Assembly: GCF_003352915.1 (NCBI RefSeq) | Contig: NZ_CP022314.1 | Location: 1,391,295-1,455,294, forward strand | Source: Arthrobacter sp. PM3 | Lineage (GTDB): Bacteria; Actinomycetota; Actinomycetes; Actinomycetales; Micrococcaceae | DNA: 64,000 nt | Reading direction: 5' to 3' | Shown: positions 34,691-63,543 of the stretch, in pieces | Layout of the letters: each line of letters opens with the position of its first letter | Numbering within the stretch: the stretch's first letter is position 1 | The notes under the pieces: model-generated | Told to the model about the DNA's origin: nothing | Seen by the model: the letters and a program-made list of their open reading frames with translations, nothing else | The model's database searches: none | Position numbers and translations under genes: made by a program

Positions 34691-34745
34691 TTCTCCACAG
34701 AAGTTGTTCACACAGTTATCCACAGGCCATGAGAGATTATTCACA
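34691..34745 (+). promoter_or_regulatory. DnaA-box cluster in parS region
   Basis: Four same-strand boxes in 55 bp: TTCTCCACA (34691), TTGTTCACA (34704), perfect TTATCCACA (34716) and TTATTCACA (34737). Density is far above chance in high-GC DNA. About 9 kb from dnaA. Confidence 0.65.
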
Positions 34746-34961
34746 CCTGCTCGCCACCTGTTGAATCGCGCGTCCGGGAACCCCCAACAAGTACCGCGAG
34801 CTCCGCTTCCAAAGCCTTACTTCAAGGTTCTGCGGCCCCTTGGCTGGACGTGTTCCCACTGGACCAAAGTCGCCCAAGAATGCCCGAAAATTAACCATTG
34901 AACGCCGATTTGACCGGACCCTTGCGTGACTCAGGCGACCGCCGCAGGGCCACACCAATGT

Positions 34962-34975
34962 GTTTCACGTGAAAC
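34962..34975. promoter_or_regulatory. parS site 5
   Basis: Exact GTTTCACGTGAAAC, between the two DnaA-box clusters. Confidence 0.93.
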
Positions 34976-35066
34976 CAGATATGGCGCCGGCGCTTGTTCA
35001 CCCGCCCCGGCCAGCCGCTACTCAAGGTCTAAGTGACCGAGGCTGCGGGGCGTCCCAGCCCTTGAA

Positions 35067-35128
35067 TAATCCACAAAGTTATCCACAGCGATATCCACCG
35101 TTCGATCCACTGTGGATGATGGATCGAA
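35067..35128 (+). promoter_or_regulatory. Second DnaA-box cluster in parS region
   Basis: TAATCCACA (35067) and perfect TTATCCACA (35079), then a TATCCAC half-box, and an inverted repeat TTCGATCC (35101-35108)/GGATCGAA (35121-35128) enclosing TGTGGATGA. Confidence 0.6.
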
Positions 35129-36490
35129 TTGCCAAAAGCAGTCCTGCCCCTCTGCCTCGGGGCGCCAACGCCTGCCGTGCCTCCGGTCCCGCACGGGAGC
35201 GATCGAGCGGCCTCATGCACCTGTACGCCCACCCAGGACAACAACGACGTCTCCGCCCTCCGAGCCACTGGCACCACCCACCAGCCGGCCAGCAGGCCAC
35301 CCCAGCGACGCGGGCGGGGCGTTCAGTAGACGAAGCGTCCAGGAGGCGACGCATCCGGTAGGTGTCGGACATCGAAGGAACAGCGCGCGGCCGACGTCCC
35401 TCACGCGGCACCTCAGACCGAAACATGGAGGCATGACTCCGGCGCAATGCGGCCGTCCACAGAACCTTCTGAGGGGGGAGCGCCGCTGCCTCCAAGACGT
35501 GGCGGCGTCCTCCCGGACACGCCGGCATGCCAAGCCCCACGGCCAGCAGCAGCTCGCCCAGCCACCCCAAAGCACGTGGTCCCCGCGCGGTGAACGTCCC
35601 CCGGTGAACCTTGCCCTAGCATCGCGGGCCTCGTCCGCTCGAACCCGACCGGAGTCTCCAAGTTGCATTGTTGCCGCGAGCGTCGCGCAATCGGCGGACC
35701 GAAGAGGGTGGGCGGGAGCATGCGAAGGGACATTGGGCAATGCAGGACGTTCTCCCTGGGGGAGCGGGGAGCAATGAGTGGGGGACCACTCCTGGCTCTG
35801 TCCTCGTACACGCGCGCAGCGGCGGCCCATCTTATGGTCCTCGGTACGACGACCTCGATCCCCTTCCAGGGCCGGACAGGATCATGGCTCGGTCATGGTC
35901 CGAGTCAGGGACGTCGGGCCAGGAAGTAGCTAAGGGGGTAGGAACTCGGGCATGACCGATCCTCCAGCTGCAGTCGAGTAGCACAAACTGTAAGGCCGGG
36001 TACGCAAGACGACAGCAGCACGCGGGGATGCAGCCTCCCACGAATGCGGACGACCTGGCGGCTTCCATCCTCGCGAGAGTCGAGACAGAGCCACTCCGAT
36101 GTGAACTGCCCACACGGAATCATTGGCCAGGGCGCGACGCCCATCCGTGACACGGCGTCAGCAGGAGTGGAGGATGATGTCCGCGTAACCTCCTGGCGTG
36201 CGCATCGGGCGCTATGCCGGCATTCCGCCCTCGTGACTGTCCCGTCGGAGGTCTAGTGGAGATCGGATCTACGATGGCGCCATCGGGGACTCCCGTCCGG
36301 TTCAGGGGCTGGCCGGTTCATGGGTGGCCGGTTCCCCGGCTTACCATCCATCAACTGTCCCGCCAGAGCCAGTCCGCAGAAATCCCTGCCACCTCAGTCT
36401 TCGCGCATCACCACACAAGCCCGGAGGGGAGGAGCGCCAGCCGAATTTTGGCACCGCTCGCGACCGCGGGGGCGCCGGCGCCCTGTCGCC

Positions 36491-36504
36491 GTTTCACGTG
36501 AAAC
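36491..36504. promoter_or_regulatory. parS site 6
   Basis: Exact GTTTCACGTGAAAC; first of four sites spaced 40, 41 and 45 bp. Confidence 0.94.
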
Positions 36505-36512
36505 CGTGCAGC

Positions 36513-36528
36513 AGGTGACGAGTCACCT
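36513..36528. promoter_or_regulatory. Palindrome between parS sites 6 and 7
   Basis: AGGTGAC-GA-GTCACCT is a perfect 7-bp inverted repeat placed centrally between two parS sites. A partial copy (TGACGAGTCA, about 36556-36565) sits between sites 7 and 8. It may bind another dimeric protein or simply belong to the repeated unit. Confidence 0.5.
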
Positions 36529-36530
36529 AG

Positions 36531-36544
36531 CTTTCACGTGAAAC
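36531..36544. promoter_or_regulatory. parS site 7 (one mismatch)
   Basis: CTTTCACGTGAAAC, differing from parS only at the first base; part of a 40-41 bp repeated unit with sites 6 and 8. Confidence 0.85.
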
Positions 36545-36571
36545 CATGCACCTGCTGACGAGTCACTTACC

Positions 36572-36585
36572 GTTTCACGTGAAAC
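36572..36585. promoter_or_regulatory. parS site 8
   Basis: Exact GTTTCACGTGAAAC, 41 bp after site 7. Confidence 0.94.
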
Positions 36586-36616
36586 CGAACCCCTCCTTCC
36601 GCATCTGCATCATGGT

Positions 36617-45460: not shown

Positions 45461-46067
45461 GCTGATTCCTGGGCTGATTCCTGTCCCGACCGTCGCGCAC
45501 TCTTACCTTATTAACAGGGGCCTGTGGACAAGCCTGTGGATACTTAAGGGGACAACCGCGGTTAATGGGCTTAAAACCCTTAAGCCGCCTGTGGATCGGC
45601 GAAAACGCCGAAAATGTTGTCCCCATCCACACCCTGTTTAAAACCTGCGCCGCCCACAGTCCATGAACAGGGCTTAACCGCGGAATCGCACCGCAGGAGC
45701 GAGTTATCCACAGTTTCCACAGCAGTTATTAACACTACTAATCCCAAAAAATGAAAATCCCTCAAACAACAATCTCCCTCCCGCGTCCAGCCAGCCCCTG
45801 GCCCGTTCCGGGCCGGCGCCGGAGAACGGGCGGGCAAACCACACTCGTGTAAGCCGGGGATGGGAGAAATACTCACCTTGGGGCTAAGCTGTCTGCAGTG
45901 CGTCCGTCCCGGACATCTTTTGTGGTTCCCACCGGGCCACGGGCCCGGGGTGGGCGGGCGATTTCCCTGTTGACGGAGTCCGGCAGCTATGCCGGGGTCC
46001 GCGCCAGCTTGGGAAATTTTCAGCGATTTTCAGCACAGACAGCAGCAATGAAAGGCGGCACCCTTCC
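45461..46067. other. Probable oriC (dnaA-dnaN intergenic region)
   Basis: A 607-bp gap. DnaA-box-like 9-mers: TGTGGACAA (45523), TGTGGATAC (45535), TGTGGATCG (45590), TTGTCCCCA (45617), CCATCCACA (45623), perfect TTATCCACA (45704), GTTTCCACA (45713). GTTATTAAC at 45725 is followed by an AT-rich tract (45733-45772), the likely unwinding element. GGCTTAA/TTAAGCC (45568-45574/45580-45586) is an inverted repeat. The dnaN promoter must lie in the right half. Position and box density match actinobacterial origins. Confidence 0.85.
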
Positions 46068-47192
46068 GTGAAGTTCAGAGTCGAACGGGACGTCCTGGCA
46101 GAAGCCGTGACATGGACCGCCCGGTCGTTGTCTCCGCGGCCGCCCGTTCCCGTCCTTTCAGGCCTGCTCCTGAAGGCTGAAGCCGGTACCGTCAGCCTGT
46201 CGAGTTTTGATTACGAGACCTCCGCCAGGCTTGAAATCCCTGCCGACATCAGCGCCGAGGGCACCATCCTGGTCTCGGGGCGCCTCCTCGCGGACATCTG
46301 CCGCAGCCTGCCTTCGGCCCCTGTCGAGGTTGAAACCGACGGCAACAAGGTGACTCTCACCTGCCGCCGAAGCAGCTTCCACCTGGCCACGATGCCCGAG
46401 GCCGAATACCCGCCCCTGCCTGCCCTGCCCACCATCAGCGGCACAGTTCCCGGCGATTCCTTCGCCCAGGCGGTGTCCCAGGTGATCATCGCGGCCAGCA
46501 AGGACGACACCCTGCCGATCCTCACCGGCGTGCGCATGGAGATCGAAGACGATCTCATCACCCTCCTCGCCACCGACCGCTACCGCCTCGCCATGCGCGA
46601 AGTCCCCTGGAAGCCCGCCACTCCGGGCATCTCCACCAGCGCCTTGGTCAAGGCCAAGACACTCAACGAGGTTGCGAAAACCCTCGGCAGCAGCGGCGAC
46701 ATCAACATCGCCCTCGCCGACGACGACAGCCGGCTTATCGGATTCGAGAGCGGTGGCAGGACCACCACCTCCCTGCTGGTGGACGGCGACTACCCCAAGA
46801 TCCGCTCGCTGTTCCCGGACTCAACCCCGATCCACGCCACCGTGCAGACCCAGGAGCTGGTCGAGGCCGTACGCCGCGTCTCGCTCGTGGCCGAACGGAA
46901 CACCCCGGTCCGGCTCGCCTTCACCCAGGGCCAGCTGCACCTGGATGCCGGCACCGGCGAGGACGCCCAGGCCTCCGAAGAGCTCGAAGCCCAGCTCTCC
47001 GGCGAGGACATCACCGTCGCCTTCAACCCGCACTACCTGATCGAGGGCCTGAGCGTGATCGAAACCAAGTTTGTGCGCTTCTCGTTCACCACCGCGCCCA
47101 AGCCGGCCATGATCACGGCCCAGCAGGACGCCGACGGCGAGGACAAGGGCGACTACCGCTACCTCGTCATGCCCGTCCGGCTGCCCAACTAG
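46068..47192 (+). CDS. dnaN: DNA polymerase III beta subunit (sliding clamp)
   Basis: A 374-residue clamp that dimerises around DNA and tethers the polymerase. The three-fold repeat of clamp domains is visible by spacing; the start KFRVERDVLAEAVTWTARSLSPRPPVPVLSGLLL and end YRYLVMPVRLPN are conserved, the latter forming the hydrophobic protein-binding pocket. It starts at GTG 46068. A strong hairpin follows at 47204-47229. Confidence 0.97.
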   Translation: MKFRVERDVLAEAVTWTARSLSPRPPVPVLSGLLLKAEAGTVSLSSFDYETSARLEIPADISAEGTILVSGRLLADICRSLPSAPVEVETDGNKVTLTCRRSSFHLATMPEAEYPPLPALPTISGTVPGDSFAQAVSQVIIAASKDDTLPILTGVRMEIEDDLITLLATDRYRLAMREVPWKPATPGISTSALVKAKTLNEVAKTLGSSGDINIALADDDSRLIGFESGGRTTTSLLVDGDYPKIRSLFPDSTPIHATVQTQELVEAVRRVSLVAERNTPVRLAFTQGQLHLDAGTGEDAQASEELEAQLSGEDITVAFNPHYLIEGLSVIETKFVRFSFTTAPKPAMITAQQDADGEDKGDYRYLVMPVRLPN

Positions 47193-60708: not shown

Positions 60709-61575
60709 ATGAGCTACGGAGTTCCGGCGGCAGAGCCGTCCGCGGAGGTCCCGGTCTGCCCCAGGCACCCGGACCGGCCAGCCTATGTGCGCTGCCAGCG
60801 ATGCGGGCGCCCTGCGTGCCCCGATTGCCAGCGGGCGGCCGCCGTCGGATTCCAATGCGTTGACTGCGTCAACGAAACCAAACGCACGACGCCGGCCGTC
60901 CGGACTGTCTATGGCGGCGCCGTCACGACCGGCAAACCCGTGGTCACCTTCACGATCATCGGCCTGTGCGCCCTTGTCTATGCGCTGCAGTGGATAGTCC
61001 CCAACGACGGCATCTACCAGCAACTGGCCTACGCCCCCGCCTTCACGGATACCGAGCCGTGGCGGATGCTCACCTCGGCATTCCTGCACTCGCAGGGATT
61101 CCTGCTTCACATCGTCCTGAACATGTATACGTTGTGGATTTTCGGCCAGATCCTTGAACCGCTGCTGGGCCACGCCCGCTTTCTGGTCATCTATCTGCTC
61201 TCGGCCGTCGGCGGATCGGCCGGCTTCCTCCTGCTGACCCCGGTTTATCCGGTGAACGGGCCGGTGGGCCTCGTGGGAGCCTCAGGCGCCATCTTCGGCC
61301 TGTTCGGCGCCCTGCTGGTGGTCCAGCGGCAACGCGGCGGCGATATCCGCCAACTTCTGGTGCTGATCGCCATCAACGGCGTCATCGGTTTCATGGTCCC
61401 CCAGATCGCGTGGCAGGCCCATCTCGGCGGCCTCGTCACCGGCGTACTAAGTGCCGCCGTCATCGCCTACACCCCTCGTGGCCCCCGGCAGACCCTGGTG
61501 CAGGTTCTTGGCCTGGCCGGCGTCTTGGTGCTGGTTATCGTCGCATCCGCCGTACGGATGGCCAGCGCCGCCTAG
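60709..61575 (+). CDS. Rhomboid-family intramembrane serine protease
   Basis: A 288-residue membrane protease. An N-terminal zinc-ribbon/B-box-like region has paired Cys/His (CPRHPDRPAYVRCQRCGRPACPDCQ, CVDC; residues 17-53). Six helices follow; the catalytic Ser is in GASGAIFGLFGA, the catalytic His in WQAHLGGLVTG, and the oxyanion Asn in LHIVLNMYTLWIFG. All catalytic residues are present. It cleaves transmembrane substrates. The cyclophilin gene precedes it by 9 bases. Confidence 0.94.
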   Translation: MSYGVPAAEPSAEVPVCPRHPDRPAYVRCQRCGRPACPDCQRAAAVGFQCVDCVNETKRTTPAVRTVYGGAVTTGKPVVTFTIIGLCALVYALQWIVPNDGIYQQLAYAPAFTDTEPWRMLTSAFLHSQGFLLHIVLNMYTLWIFGQILEPLLGHARFLVIYLLSAVGGSAGFLLLTPVYPVNGPVGLVGASGAIFGLFGALLVVQRQRGGDIRQLLVLIAINGVIGFMVPQIAWQAHLGGLVTGVLSAAVIAYTPRGPRQTLVQVLGLAGVLVLVIVASAVRMASAA

Positions 61576-62613
61576 TTCGGCCTGCCCCCTCGCCGTCGGC
61601 GCGCACCCCGCCCTGCGCGTGCCTCTCCCTCTCCCTCGCCGTCGGCGGGCTTCTCCGTCCGGGGCTACTTCGACACGAAAACACTGCTCCCTGGCCCTTC
61701 ATCGCCGCCTCAGTGCCGCAAAGCCGCCCCGGACGGCGCCCGACTTCCTCCCCTGCCCGCGGGAGCGCAACGGCAGTCCGCTTACCCGAGGGCAAACCGG
61801 CCCGGCCGTCGGTGGTTTCTGCTGCAGCGGGCGGAAGTTTTCCACAAGCGTTTTCCACAGTGTTAATAACTTACAGGCATGTAGTTCCGGGCGGCGTACC
61901 CGATCTGACCGCCACGACGGGCGATTTTCGACGTCGCCCGAGCCGACTTCGGTCGGATGTCCACACCTGTGGATAACTTCTGTGGGTTCTTCTGTTAGTA
62001 AGTGGACAACTTGGCGGTCTCGAAGTTCGTATCCAACGGGCACGACGCCGGCAGTGCCCCGCCATCAACCGTCTGACCGCTGCCGCAAGGAGAGTACCCC
62101 GCAGCGCCCGGTGGGGGGCGCGGTCAGGCGGGGCACGTTTCAACAAGGTTATTCACAGTGTTAATAACTCGGCACTCCCGGTACCGGGCGGGAAGTTTTC
62201 CGGCTCATGGCCCGTCAGCGGGGATTGCCACATGGTTTCCCCGACGTTTATCCCCAGCTGTGGATAACTTGTGGGTAGCGGGGTGTTACTAAGTGGATAA
62301 CTCTCCGGCTGCCTCTGACGATGTCTGTGGAACCAGGGGTTGTACCGCGAACCGATCATCCAAGCATCAATCTTCGCTCGAAAACCCGAGGGTGGCACTT
62401 TTCCACAGGGAATCCACACTGTTAATAACTTACAGAGGTGTAATTCAGCCGAGGCCCGAGGCGGACCCGCCTGCCGGAAACCCGTTATTGGCCTCTGACC
62501 AGCGCTTTAACCTCTCAGGAGACTGGAAATGGTTGGAACTTATGAACATTGTGGATAAGTTTCCCCAGACTTGTGCACAGCTGTGGAAAAGCTCGGCAGG
62601 GGAACTGGTGTCC
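61576..62613. repeat. DnaA-box array in three 291-bp diverged repeats
   Basis: A gap of about 1 kb without a gene. Perfect minus-strand DnaA boxes (TGTGGATAA) at 61968, 62259 and 62550 are exactly 291 bp apart. Upstream of each is a plus-strand box-like sequence (TTTTCCACA 61838 and 61851; TTATTCACA 62149; TTTTCCACA 62399 and GAATCCACA 62410) followed by GTTAATAAC (61862, 62160, 62421). AGTGGACAA (62001) and AGTGGATAA (62292) repeat at the same 291-bp step. TTATCCCCA (62248), TTGTGCACA (62571) and TGTGGAAAA (62582) add further sites. Sequence between boxes is diverged. Confidence 0.8.
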
Positions 62614-63543
62614 CTAACCAGGGCTGGTTTGGGCCTGGACCCATTCCACTTCATCGGCCAGCAGTTCCAGACTGGTCCCGGCCGGTTTGTATCCCAGATC
62701 CCGGGACGCAGTGGTGTCCAGGGTCATTGCTGTCCGCCACGGGTGCTGCCCGCGGTTGGACGTAGTCGGGACCAGCTCGATTGTTCCGCTCCATGCGAGT
62801 TGAGCAGCAATGGCCTGCACAATTTGCACCGCTGAAGGGGTGTCCGGATCGGCGGCGTTCAGGATGCGGGCCCCGGGGTGGGCCGCGAGAGTCTCGATCA
62901 GGGCGGCGGCATTGGCGGCTGCGCTGAGATGGTCGATAGTTTCCGGGTCGGCCAGCTCTATGGTCGGCTCTCCACGGAGCATGTGCTCAACGATGCCTTG
63001 TGTGCGGGCCTGTCGGGCCCAACGGCCGTGGACTTTCGAGGGTCGGATTACGGTCACCGGCAGGCCGGAGTCGAGTGCTGCAAGCTCAGCGGCGACCTTG
63101 CAGGGTGCGTATCCCTCCCGGCTGTAGGGGCTGACATCGTCTCCGGCCGGCGGAAGCGTAGGGGCGTCCTCGCAGATAGGCTGCTCAAACCGGGGAGACT
63201 CGTCACTGTTGACATGCCTGCCCGCCCTGTCGGCGTAGACAGCTCGGCTCGACACCAACACCGGGCAGGTCACTGACGCCATTACCGGAAGAATGGCCCT
63301 GACGTCTGCAGCCGTATATGCGGTGAGATCGACCAGCAGATCCGCACCGCCGCCTAGGAGCCCCTCAATTCCTGCGCTGTTGCTGCGCTCGATCTGGTGG
63401 AAGCGTACCCCTGCCTCCAAGAGCTCGACAGGCATTCGCGAACCATCGCGGCCTGTCACATCCACGTTCCACCCTGCTTTGGCGAGCCGCAACGCGGTCA
63501 TGCCGCCCATGGCTCCCGTGCCGCCTAACAGAACCGCCCGCAC
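62614..63543 (-). CDS. NAD(P)-dependent epimerase/dehydratase family protein
   Basis: A 309-residue Rossmann-fold protein of the extended SDR family. The nucleotide motif is AVLLGGTGAMGGMTALRLAKAGWNV; VLVSSRAVYAD and YSREGYAPCKVAAE hold the Ser/Tyr/Lys catalytic set, with the Tyr somewhat displaced. It resembles RNA-binding/isoflavone-reductase-like SDRs more than classical sugar epimerases. GTG at 63543 behind GGGGGAGACA. Its stop is directly next to the DnaA-box repeat region. Confidence 0.85.
   Translation of the reverse strand: MRAVLLGGTGAMGGMTALRLAKAGWNVDVTGRDGSRMPVELLEAGVRFHQIERSNSAGIEGLLGGGADLLVDLTAYTAADVRAILPVMASVTCPVLVSSRAVYADRAGRHVNSDESPRFEQPICEDAPTLPPAGDDVSPYSREGYAPCKVAAELAALDSGLPVTVIRPSKVHGRWARQARTQGIVEHMLRGEPTIELADPETIDHLSAAANAAALIETLAAHPGARILNAADPDTPSAVQIVQAIAAQLAWSGTIELVPTTSNRGQHPWRTAMTLDTTASRDLGYKPAGTSLELLADEVEWVQAQTSPG

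Follow-up and report, generated by a model that had tools for sequence, protein, structure and literature searches.

A DnaA-box cluster of conserved place and geometry about 16 kb from oriC in an Arthrobacter genome: a candidate locus for control of replication initiation

Clusters of DnaA boxes outside oriC are a kind of element that is already known. Work by Okumura (2012) is said to deal with clusters proximal to oriC in Bacillus subtilis, and work by Smulczyk-Krawczyszyn (2006) reportedly deals with those in Streptomyces coelicolor; one of the Streptomyces clusters may sit near the same genes as the Arthrobacter cluster considered here. To our knowledge, how actinobacteria reset DnaA after initiation is poorly known. 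According to one review, the essential boxes of datA all point in one direction and an IHF site is required, and in the DARS sites box I is opposite to boxes II and III, head-to-head contact being a prominent feature (PMC5742627). Another paper states that datA and DARS differ between strains of E. coli mainly in their spacers (PMC4585315). In the MG1655 genome, the cores of DARS1 and DARS2 were sought first in the uvrB-ybhK and mutH-ygdR gaps, respectively, and were found in other gaps, namely bioD-uvrB (putative DARS1 core) and rppH-mutH (putative DARS2 core). The boxes are unlabelled in the record and the cores, as read here, have the order box(+) -14- box(-) -12- box(-).

The window is the whole stretch of DNA that was analysed (64 kb). 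It belongs to a genome of a single contig of 4,350,352 bases, in which DnaA is encoded with its C-terminal helix-turn-helix domain. The cluster (61838–62590) is located in the non-coding gap 61576–62613, separate from oriC and about 16 kb away from it. Ten sites with at most one mismatch to TTATCCACA were found in this gap, whereas 500 dinucleotide shuffles gave 0.09 on average and never more than 3; the whole 64 kb contained 27 such sites, with a shuffle mean of 3.14 and a largest value of 8. Perfect TTATCCACA was found 26 times in the genome and the reversed pattern 5 times. The 464 kb around the origin contained seven runs of boxes, a run being at least three boxes with no more than 300 bp between neighbours; the cluster, with 10, was the largest. 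An excess of boxes in non-coding DNA away from oriC, as is general for DnaA-box clusters, was thus found in the gap, and it recurs in relatives. As judged from the sequence, this stretch would be, with a probability of roughly 0.7, a non-coding locus of initiation control that assembles DnaA away from oriC, like datA, DARS and the Bacillus and Streptomyces clusters. Several of the cluster boxes are weak (two or three mismatches), which counts against such a function. The features are listed in Table 1.

Table 1. Features of the cluster and its surroundings (window coordinates).
Feature	Position	Strand	Remark
dnaA	44024–45460		
dnaA-dnaN gap, presumed oriC	45461–46067	.	conserved box-box-GTTATTAACACTACTAAT element; GTTATTAAC at 45725–45733
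dnaN	46068–47192		
Rhomboid gene	60709–61575	+	stop faces cluster; PF01694
Module 1 part A, DnaA box-like TTTTCCACA, first of tandem pair	61838–61846	+	13-bp step to next box recurs in relatives
Module 1 part A, DnaA box-like TTTTCCACA, second of tandem pair	61851–61859	+	
Module 1, GTTAATAAC	61862–61870	+	
Degenerate box ATGTCCACA, head-to-head partner (11 bp) of 61968 box	61957–61965	+	
Module 1 part B, perfect DnaA box	61968–61976	-	
Module 1 part B, degenerate third box TGTGGGTTC, 13-bp step	61981–61989	-	by eye
Box-like site AGTGGACAA, 33 bp past perfect box of module 1	62001–62009	-	
Module 2 part A, DnaA box-like TTATTCACA	62149–62157	+	
Module 2, GTTAATAAC	62160–62168	+	
TTATCCCCA, head-to-head partner (11 bp) of 62259 box	62248–62256	+	
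Module 2 part B, perfect DnaA box	62259–62267	-	
Module 2, degenerate third box TGTGGGTAG, 11-bp step	62270–62278	-	by eye
Box-like site AGTGGATAA, 33 bp past perfect box of module 2	62292–62300	-	
Module 3 part A, DnaA box-like TTTTCCACA	62399–62407	+	
Module 3, GTTAATAAC	62421–62429	+	
Module 3 part B, perfect DnaA box	62550–62558	-	
TTGTGCACA, head-to-head partner (11 bp) of 62582 site	62571–62579	+	
Module 3, box-like site TGTGGAAAA	62582–62590	-	TGTGGATAA in L003–L006
NAD-dependent epimerase-like gene	62614–63543	-	stop faces cluster; PF01370

The genes that flank the cluster, rhomboid (+) and epimerase-like (-), are convergent and both end at the gap. A match to a B-box-type zinc finger (PF00643) was observed at the N-terminus of the rhomboid protein (60709–61572). 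The distance from the start of dnaN to the start of ppiA was 14.0 kb in the window and 10.4–14.1 kb in the loci of 37 relatives. The dnaN search had covered 39 genomes, two of which were left out: in L056 the coordinates would put a distance of about 46 kb between dnaN and ppiA, with the genes on opposite strands, and in L043 dnaN is split into three matches. These distances assume that the contigs of the dnaN and ppiA searches are identical, as their close agreement suggests.

For comparison, the ppiA protein was used to retrieve related loci, of which the best 80 of 575 confirmed ones were kept (mostly Micrococcaceae, few others). A methyladenine glycosylase gene convergent with the rhomboid gene lies downstream in 42 of these best 80 of 575 loci (counted by hand), and no tblastn match to the epimerase-like gene was found at 1e-5 in any of the 80. 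The epimerase-like gene, which lies between the cluster and the glycosylase gene, is likely an insertion in this lineage. In other bacteria DnaA has a further role in transcription control, and the cluster might on this ground regulate the transcription of a neighbouring gene; this is the least probable of the explanations considered, both flanking genes ending at the cluster and the downstream gene differing among the loci as just described. No promoter-like site was found at the cluster, which says little because only 0.1 was expected by chance. A reading as an RNA gene was dropped, no Rfam family having reached its gathering score in 61500–62700.

The preliminary description had presented the cluster as three copies of a 291-bp module. 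The minus strand does carry perfect TTATCCACA boxes exactly 291 bp apart (61968, 62259 and 62550). An upstream plus-strand box-like site followed by GTTAATAAC is present in each unit as well (61862, 62160 and 62421), but with steps of 298 and 261 bp instead of 291 bp, and AGTGGAYAA, said to repeat at the same step, is present at 62001 and 62292 but is replaced by TGTGGAAAA at 62582 in the third unit. An exact 291-bp module does not hold among relatives, where the steps differ (for example, 456 and 313 bp in L003, 257 and 292 bp in L004), and the period, which is peculiar to this genome, is therefore most reasonably regarded as coincidental. Tandem Repeats Finder detected no array at the cluster. 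A recent tandem duplication of a 291-bp unit was rejected, since the steps vary and since a part B copy is closest to the copy of equal rank in other species: in the 38 loci with at least two copies (from the best 80 of 575), the nearest neighbour of a copy had the same rank in 76 cases out of 76. The modules are therefore old and separately kept (orthologous).

It is the geometry, not the period, that is conserved. The map that recurs after the rhomboid gene begins with box(+) -13- box(+) -11- GTTAATAAC and continues, some 85–100 bp further on, with a head-to-head pair, box(+) -11- box(-) (10–11 bp), often followed by -33- or -25- box(-). It is present one to three times per locus, many of the loci (best 80 of 575) having only parts of it. 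An information profile was obtained from 91 copies of part A (54 loci) and 117 of part B (70 loci), the full set being 81 loci (the window plus the best 80 of 575). It revealed conservation on both sides of GTTAATAAC, namely a T that precedes it and TTACA....TGTAGTTC that follows; part of the conservation within the motifs is by choice, because the copies were picked by motif.

Box density was counted in a fixed stretch of 1.6 kb after the rhomboid gene. Of the best 80 of 575 loci, three had fewer than 900 bases there and were dropped, which left 77. The stretch contained 657 boxes in 123,200 bases, whereas 269 were found in 1,411,400 bases elsewhere in the same loci (5.33 vs. 0.19 per kb). 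For GTTAATAAC, 87 copies were counted after the rhomboid gene vs. 2 elsewhere, and by coordinates both of the latter belong to L027, whose cluster is displaced. Four or more boxes were present in 70 of these 77 loci; fewer were found in L027, L047, L054, L071, L077, L078 and L080. The cluster of L027 is located 2.3 kb off, and in L019, L043, L045 and L049 the cluster is split by gaps of 1.9–3.4 kb, with boxes remaining on both sides. In an alignment of the window with four close relatives (L003–L006), in which element columns were defined on the window, 112 of the 117 box and GTTAATAAC columns were identical in all five sequences vs. 266 of the 921 other columns. The earlier suggestion that selection has kept the box positions while the spacers diverged is strongly supported by this difference and by the densities given above.

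The cluster was also compared with the dnaA-dnaN gap. Analysis of 31 such gaps (the window and 30 relatives) showed that a box, a second box, GTTATTAACACTACTAAT and then AT-rich DNA are widely conserved, and that 27 of the gaps contain TTATTAACACTAC[TG]AAT, a putative unwinding core, which we take to fit the published DnaA-trio idea. Like this actinobacterial oriC, the cluster contains DnaA boxes and GTTATTAAC; the preliminary description had correctly placed the latter after a box in the dnaA-dnaN gap (45725). Unlike it, the cluster is somewhat less AT-rich and shows no putative unwinding element next to a box: TTATTAACACTAC[TG]AAT was absent from all 81 cluster stretches examined (window plus the best 80 of 575; the window gap, or 1.7 kb from the end of the rhomboid gene). 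The maximum AT content in 50 bp had a median of 0.70 (0.64–0.74) in the dnaA-dnaN gaps (n = 31) and 0.66 (0.58–0.68) in the cluster gaps (n = 37), and in the window it was 0.72 and 0.62, respectively.

A second or relocated origin had been considered earlier; the cluster might also be the auxiliary half of a bipartite oriC. The boxes beside GTTAATAAC resemble parts of the dnaA-dnaN gap and the AT maxima differ moderately, with overlapping ranges, but the distribution of the core (27 of 31 for the dnaA-dnaN gaps, 0 of 81 for the cluster stretches) makes a relocated origin unlikely and leaves the earlier idea unsupported. The AT difference within the window and the change in gene strand also argue against an origin here, called genes being mostly on the minus strand up to 43411 and mostly on the plus strand from dnaA on, with three minus-strand genes at 56–60 kb. 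In Kocuria, a putative oriC with an unwinding element and DnaA-trios has been placed between dnaA and dnaN (PMC12500396). Taken as a whole, an origin function of either kind is very unlikely. GC skew at four-fold sites (crude gene calls, 464 kb) was noisy and too weak to separate places 16 kb apart.

The element GTTAATAAC occurs five times in the genome, with three copies in the cluster, one on the opposite strand in the dnaA-dnaN gap and one at 2,903,392, where one box-like sequence was located about 0.7 kb away within the 2 kb inspected; the reversed pattern was found twice. Downstream of GTTAATAAC, modules 1 and 3 have a conserved TTACA....TGTARTTC, an imperfect inverted repeat (61871–61887 and 62430–62446). 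We know of no binder for either sequence. Neither is a DnaA box, and this counts against reading the stretch as a site of initiation control. The cluster might mainly bind another protein that recognises GTTAATAAC, for instance one involved in nucleoid structure or segregation, and DnaA only secondarily; the placing of GTTAATAAC in the cluster and oriC, and the conserved repeat after it, would fit such a protein. This is unlikely, however, as DnaA boxes outnumber GTTAATAAC and as GTTAATAAC (one mismatch allowed) with an upstream box is lacking in 27 of 81 loci (window plus the best 80 of 575), many of which still bear boxes.

For an initiation-control locus, the orientation of the boxes allows a closer comparison with datA and DARS. 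Head-to-head pairs 10–14 bp apart numbered 171, in 75 of 81 loci (window plus the best 80 of 575), and tail-to-tail pairs numbered 6. Their spacing was 10 or 11 bp in 164 pairs, 14 bp in 5 and 12 bp in 2. A third box (at most two mismatches) in the same direction followed in 69 of the 171 pairs, in 53 of the 81 loci, against a mean of 1.27 and a largest value of 5 when the tail was shuffled. The second spacing (n = 69) was 11 bp in 35 cases, 13 in 16, 12 in 13, 10 in 3 and 14 in 2. The remaining 102 pairs, without a third box within two mismatches, count against the control function, as do the third boxes of the window, which were recognised by eye and are degenerate. Same-direction pairs at 13 bp numbered 58 in the loci from the best 80 of 575, alongside the 171 head-to-head pairs.

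Like datA, the cluster is a non-coding group of DnaA boxes outside oriC that varies mainly in its spacers, and its tandem pair at 13 bp, head-to-tail, follows the direction rule reported for datA. It differs in that the essential boxes of datA are unidirectional and accompanied by an IHF site, whereas head-to-head pairs are frequent in the cluster beside the same-direction ones. With DARS1 and DARS2 the cluster shares a non-coding position and one box set opposite two same-direction boxes at short spacing. It differs from them in its first spacing (10–11 vs. 14 bp), its several modules, GTTAATAAC and its location about 16 kb from oriC. The candidate triad is DARS-like in orientation, not in first spacing.

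The cluster could be a DARS-like site in the strict sense, where ADP-DnaA would assemble head-to-head on the triads, lose ADP, reload ATP and promote initiation. The orientation in the MG1655 cores, the prominence of head-to-head contact between box I and the opposite boxes II and III in PMC5742627, and the third box 10–14 bp on in 69 of 171 pairs all favour this. The spacing, however, departs from the 14 and 12 bp of E. coli: the first spacing was 14 bp in only 5 pairs, the second was mixed (11–13 bp in 64 of 69), and the arrangement also occurs far from the rhomboid gene in other families. A strict DARS-like site is rather improbable; it is a sub-case of the initiation-control explanation, and the odds of the two overlap.

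To evaluate how widely the cluster occurs, the rhomboid protein was searched for in 108 genomes of the class, 102 of which gave a match at 1e-15. Forty of these 102 regions were picked for family spread, non-randomly, and up to 2.8 kb after the match was analysed (one region was incomplete), with boxes counted as TTATCCACA or TTGTCCACA with one mismatch. The first 500 bp contained 74 boxes (3.70 per kb) vs. 48 beyond (0.53 per kb), and one mononucleotide shuffle of the 40 regions gave 9 boxes in all. At least two boxes were present in the first 500 bp in 19 of the 40 regions and a head-to-head pair 10–13 bp apart in 12, so that related arrangements follow the rhomboid gene in several other actinobacterial families; 7 of the 40 regions had no box, which counts against the control reading. 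A strict triad pattern was found in 106 of 296 genomes of the class, with 0 for the reversed control. By hand count it was present in 33 of the 108 rhomboid-searched genomes, at most 10 kb downstream of the rhomboid gene in 16 and upstream in one. The remaining matches lie further off or on other contigs, some apparently on the dnaA side, and the triad is therefore not specific to a control locus. The strict pattern is absent from the genome of the window because the third boxes there are degenerate. A head-to-head pattern matched 20 of 297 genomes of the order, this one not among them, the pattern being too strict.

The locus thus presents DnaA-box sites of conserved geometry in a conserved place, and it lacks the putative unwinding core of the oriC gap. 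A titration or DnaA-reactivation site is plausible as the best reading of these features, with titration as the default because of the analogy to what has been published on clusters in Bacillus and Streptomyces. DnaA would bind the phased boxes and form multimers away from oriC, on one to three modules that are old and have been kept separately. The pool of initiation-competent DnaA would then be lowered or reset shortly after the origin-proximal DNA is copied, either by a sink or inactivation like that of datA or by nucleotide exchange like that of DARS, with a probable effect on the timing of initiation. A wider proposal is tentative and somewhat doubtful, namely that a DARS-like, triad-based DnaA control locus follows ppiA and rhomboid near oriC across much of the actinobacterial class, to which the Micrococcaceae would add an origin-linked GTTAATAAC read by a partner of DnaA, and that it is a Gram-positive counterpart of DARS or datA. 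What we take to be new is GTTAATAAC, the triad of DARS-like orientation, the presence of three old modules and the conservation of the place; a literature search covering titles and the starts of abstracts, with most subscription papers outside its scope, returned no report of this locus. The cluster may help to decide when the chromosome is copied, and its shortness and its conserved place and geometry would make the question of DnaA resetting directly testable in soil bacteria that are harmless, with natural variants that have one, two or three modules.

Other box clusters were observed nearby. A four-site cluster is located about 20 kb to the left of the window (G000:1370427–1370790; L113 1428–1799), upstream of a gene that by eye resembles that of the replicative helicase DnaB. 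Within the window, two groups of three boxes were found in apparently non-coding DNA at 34691–35119, near parA- and parB-like genes (by eye). Both places have pairs 363 bp apart (G000:1370427/1370790 and window 34716/35079), and an inverted duplication was considered and rejected, as no blastn similarity was found at 1e-5 and the sequences differ by eye. Between the two groups of 34691–35119 lies GTTTCACGTGAAAC, which we take to be a parS-like site. The same sequence is contained in a tandem 40-bp repeat at 36489–36586, a parS-like array near the parB-like gene.
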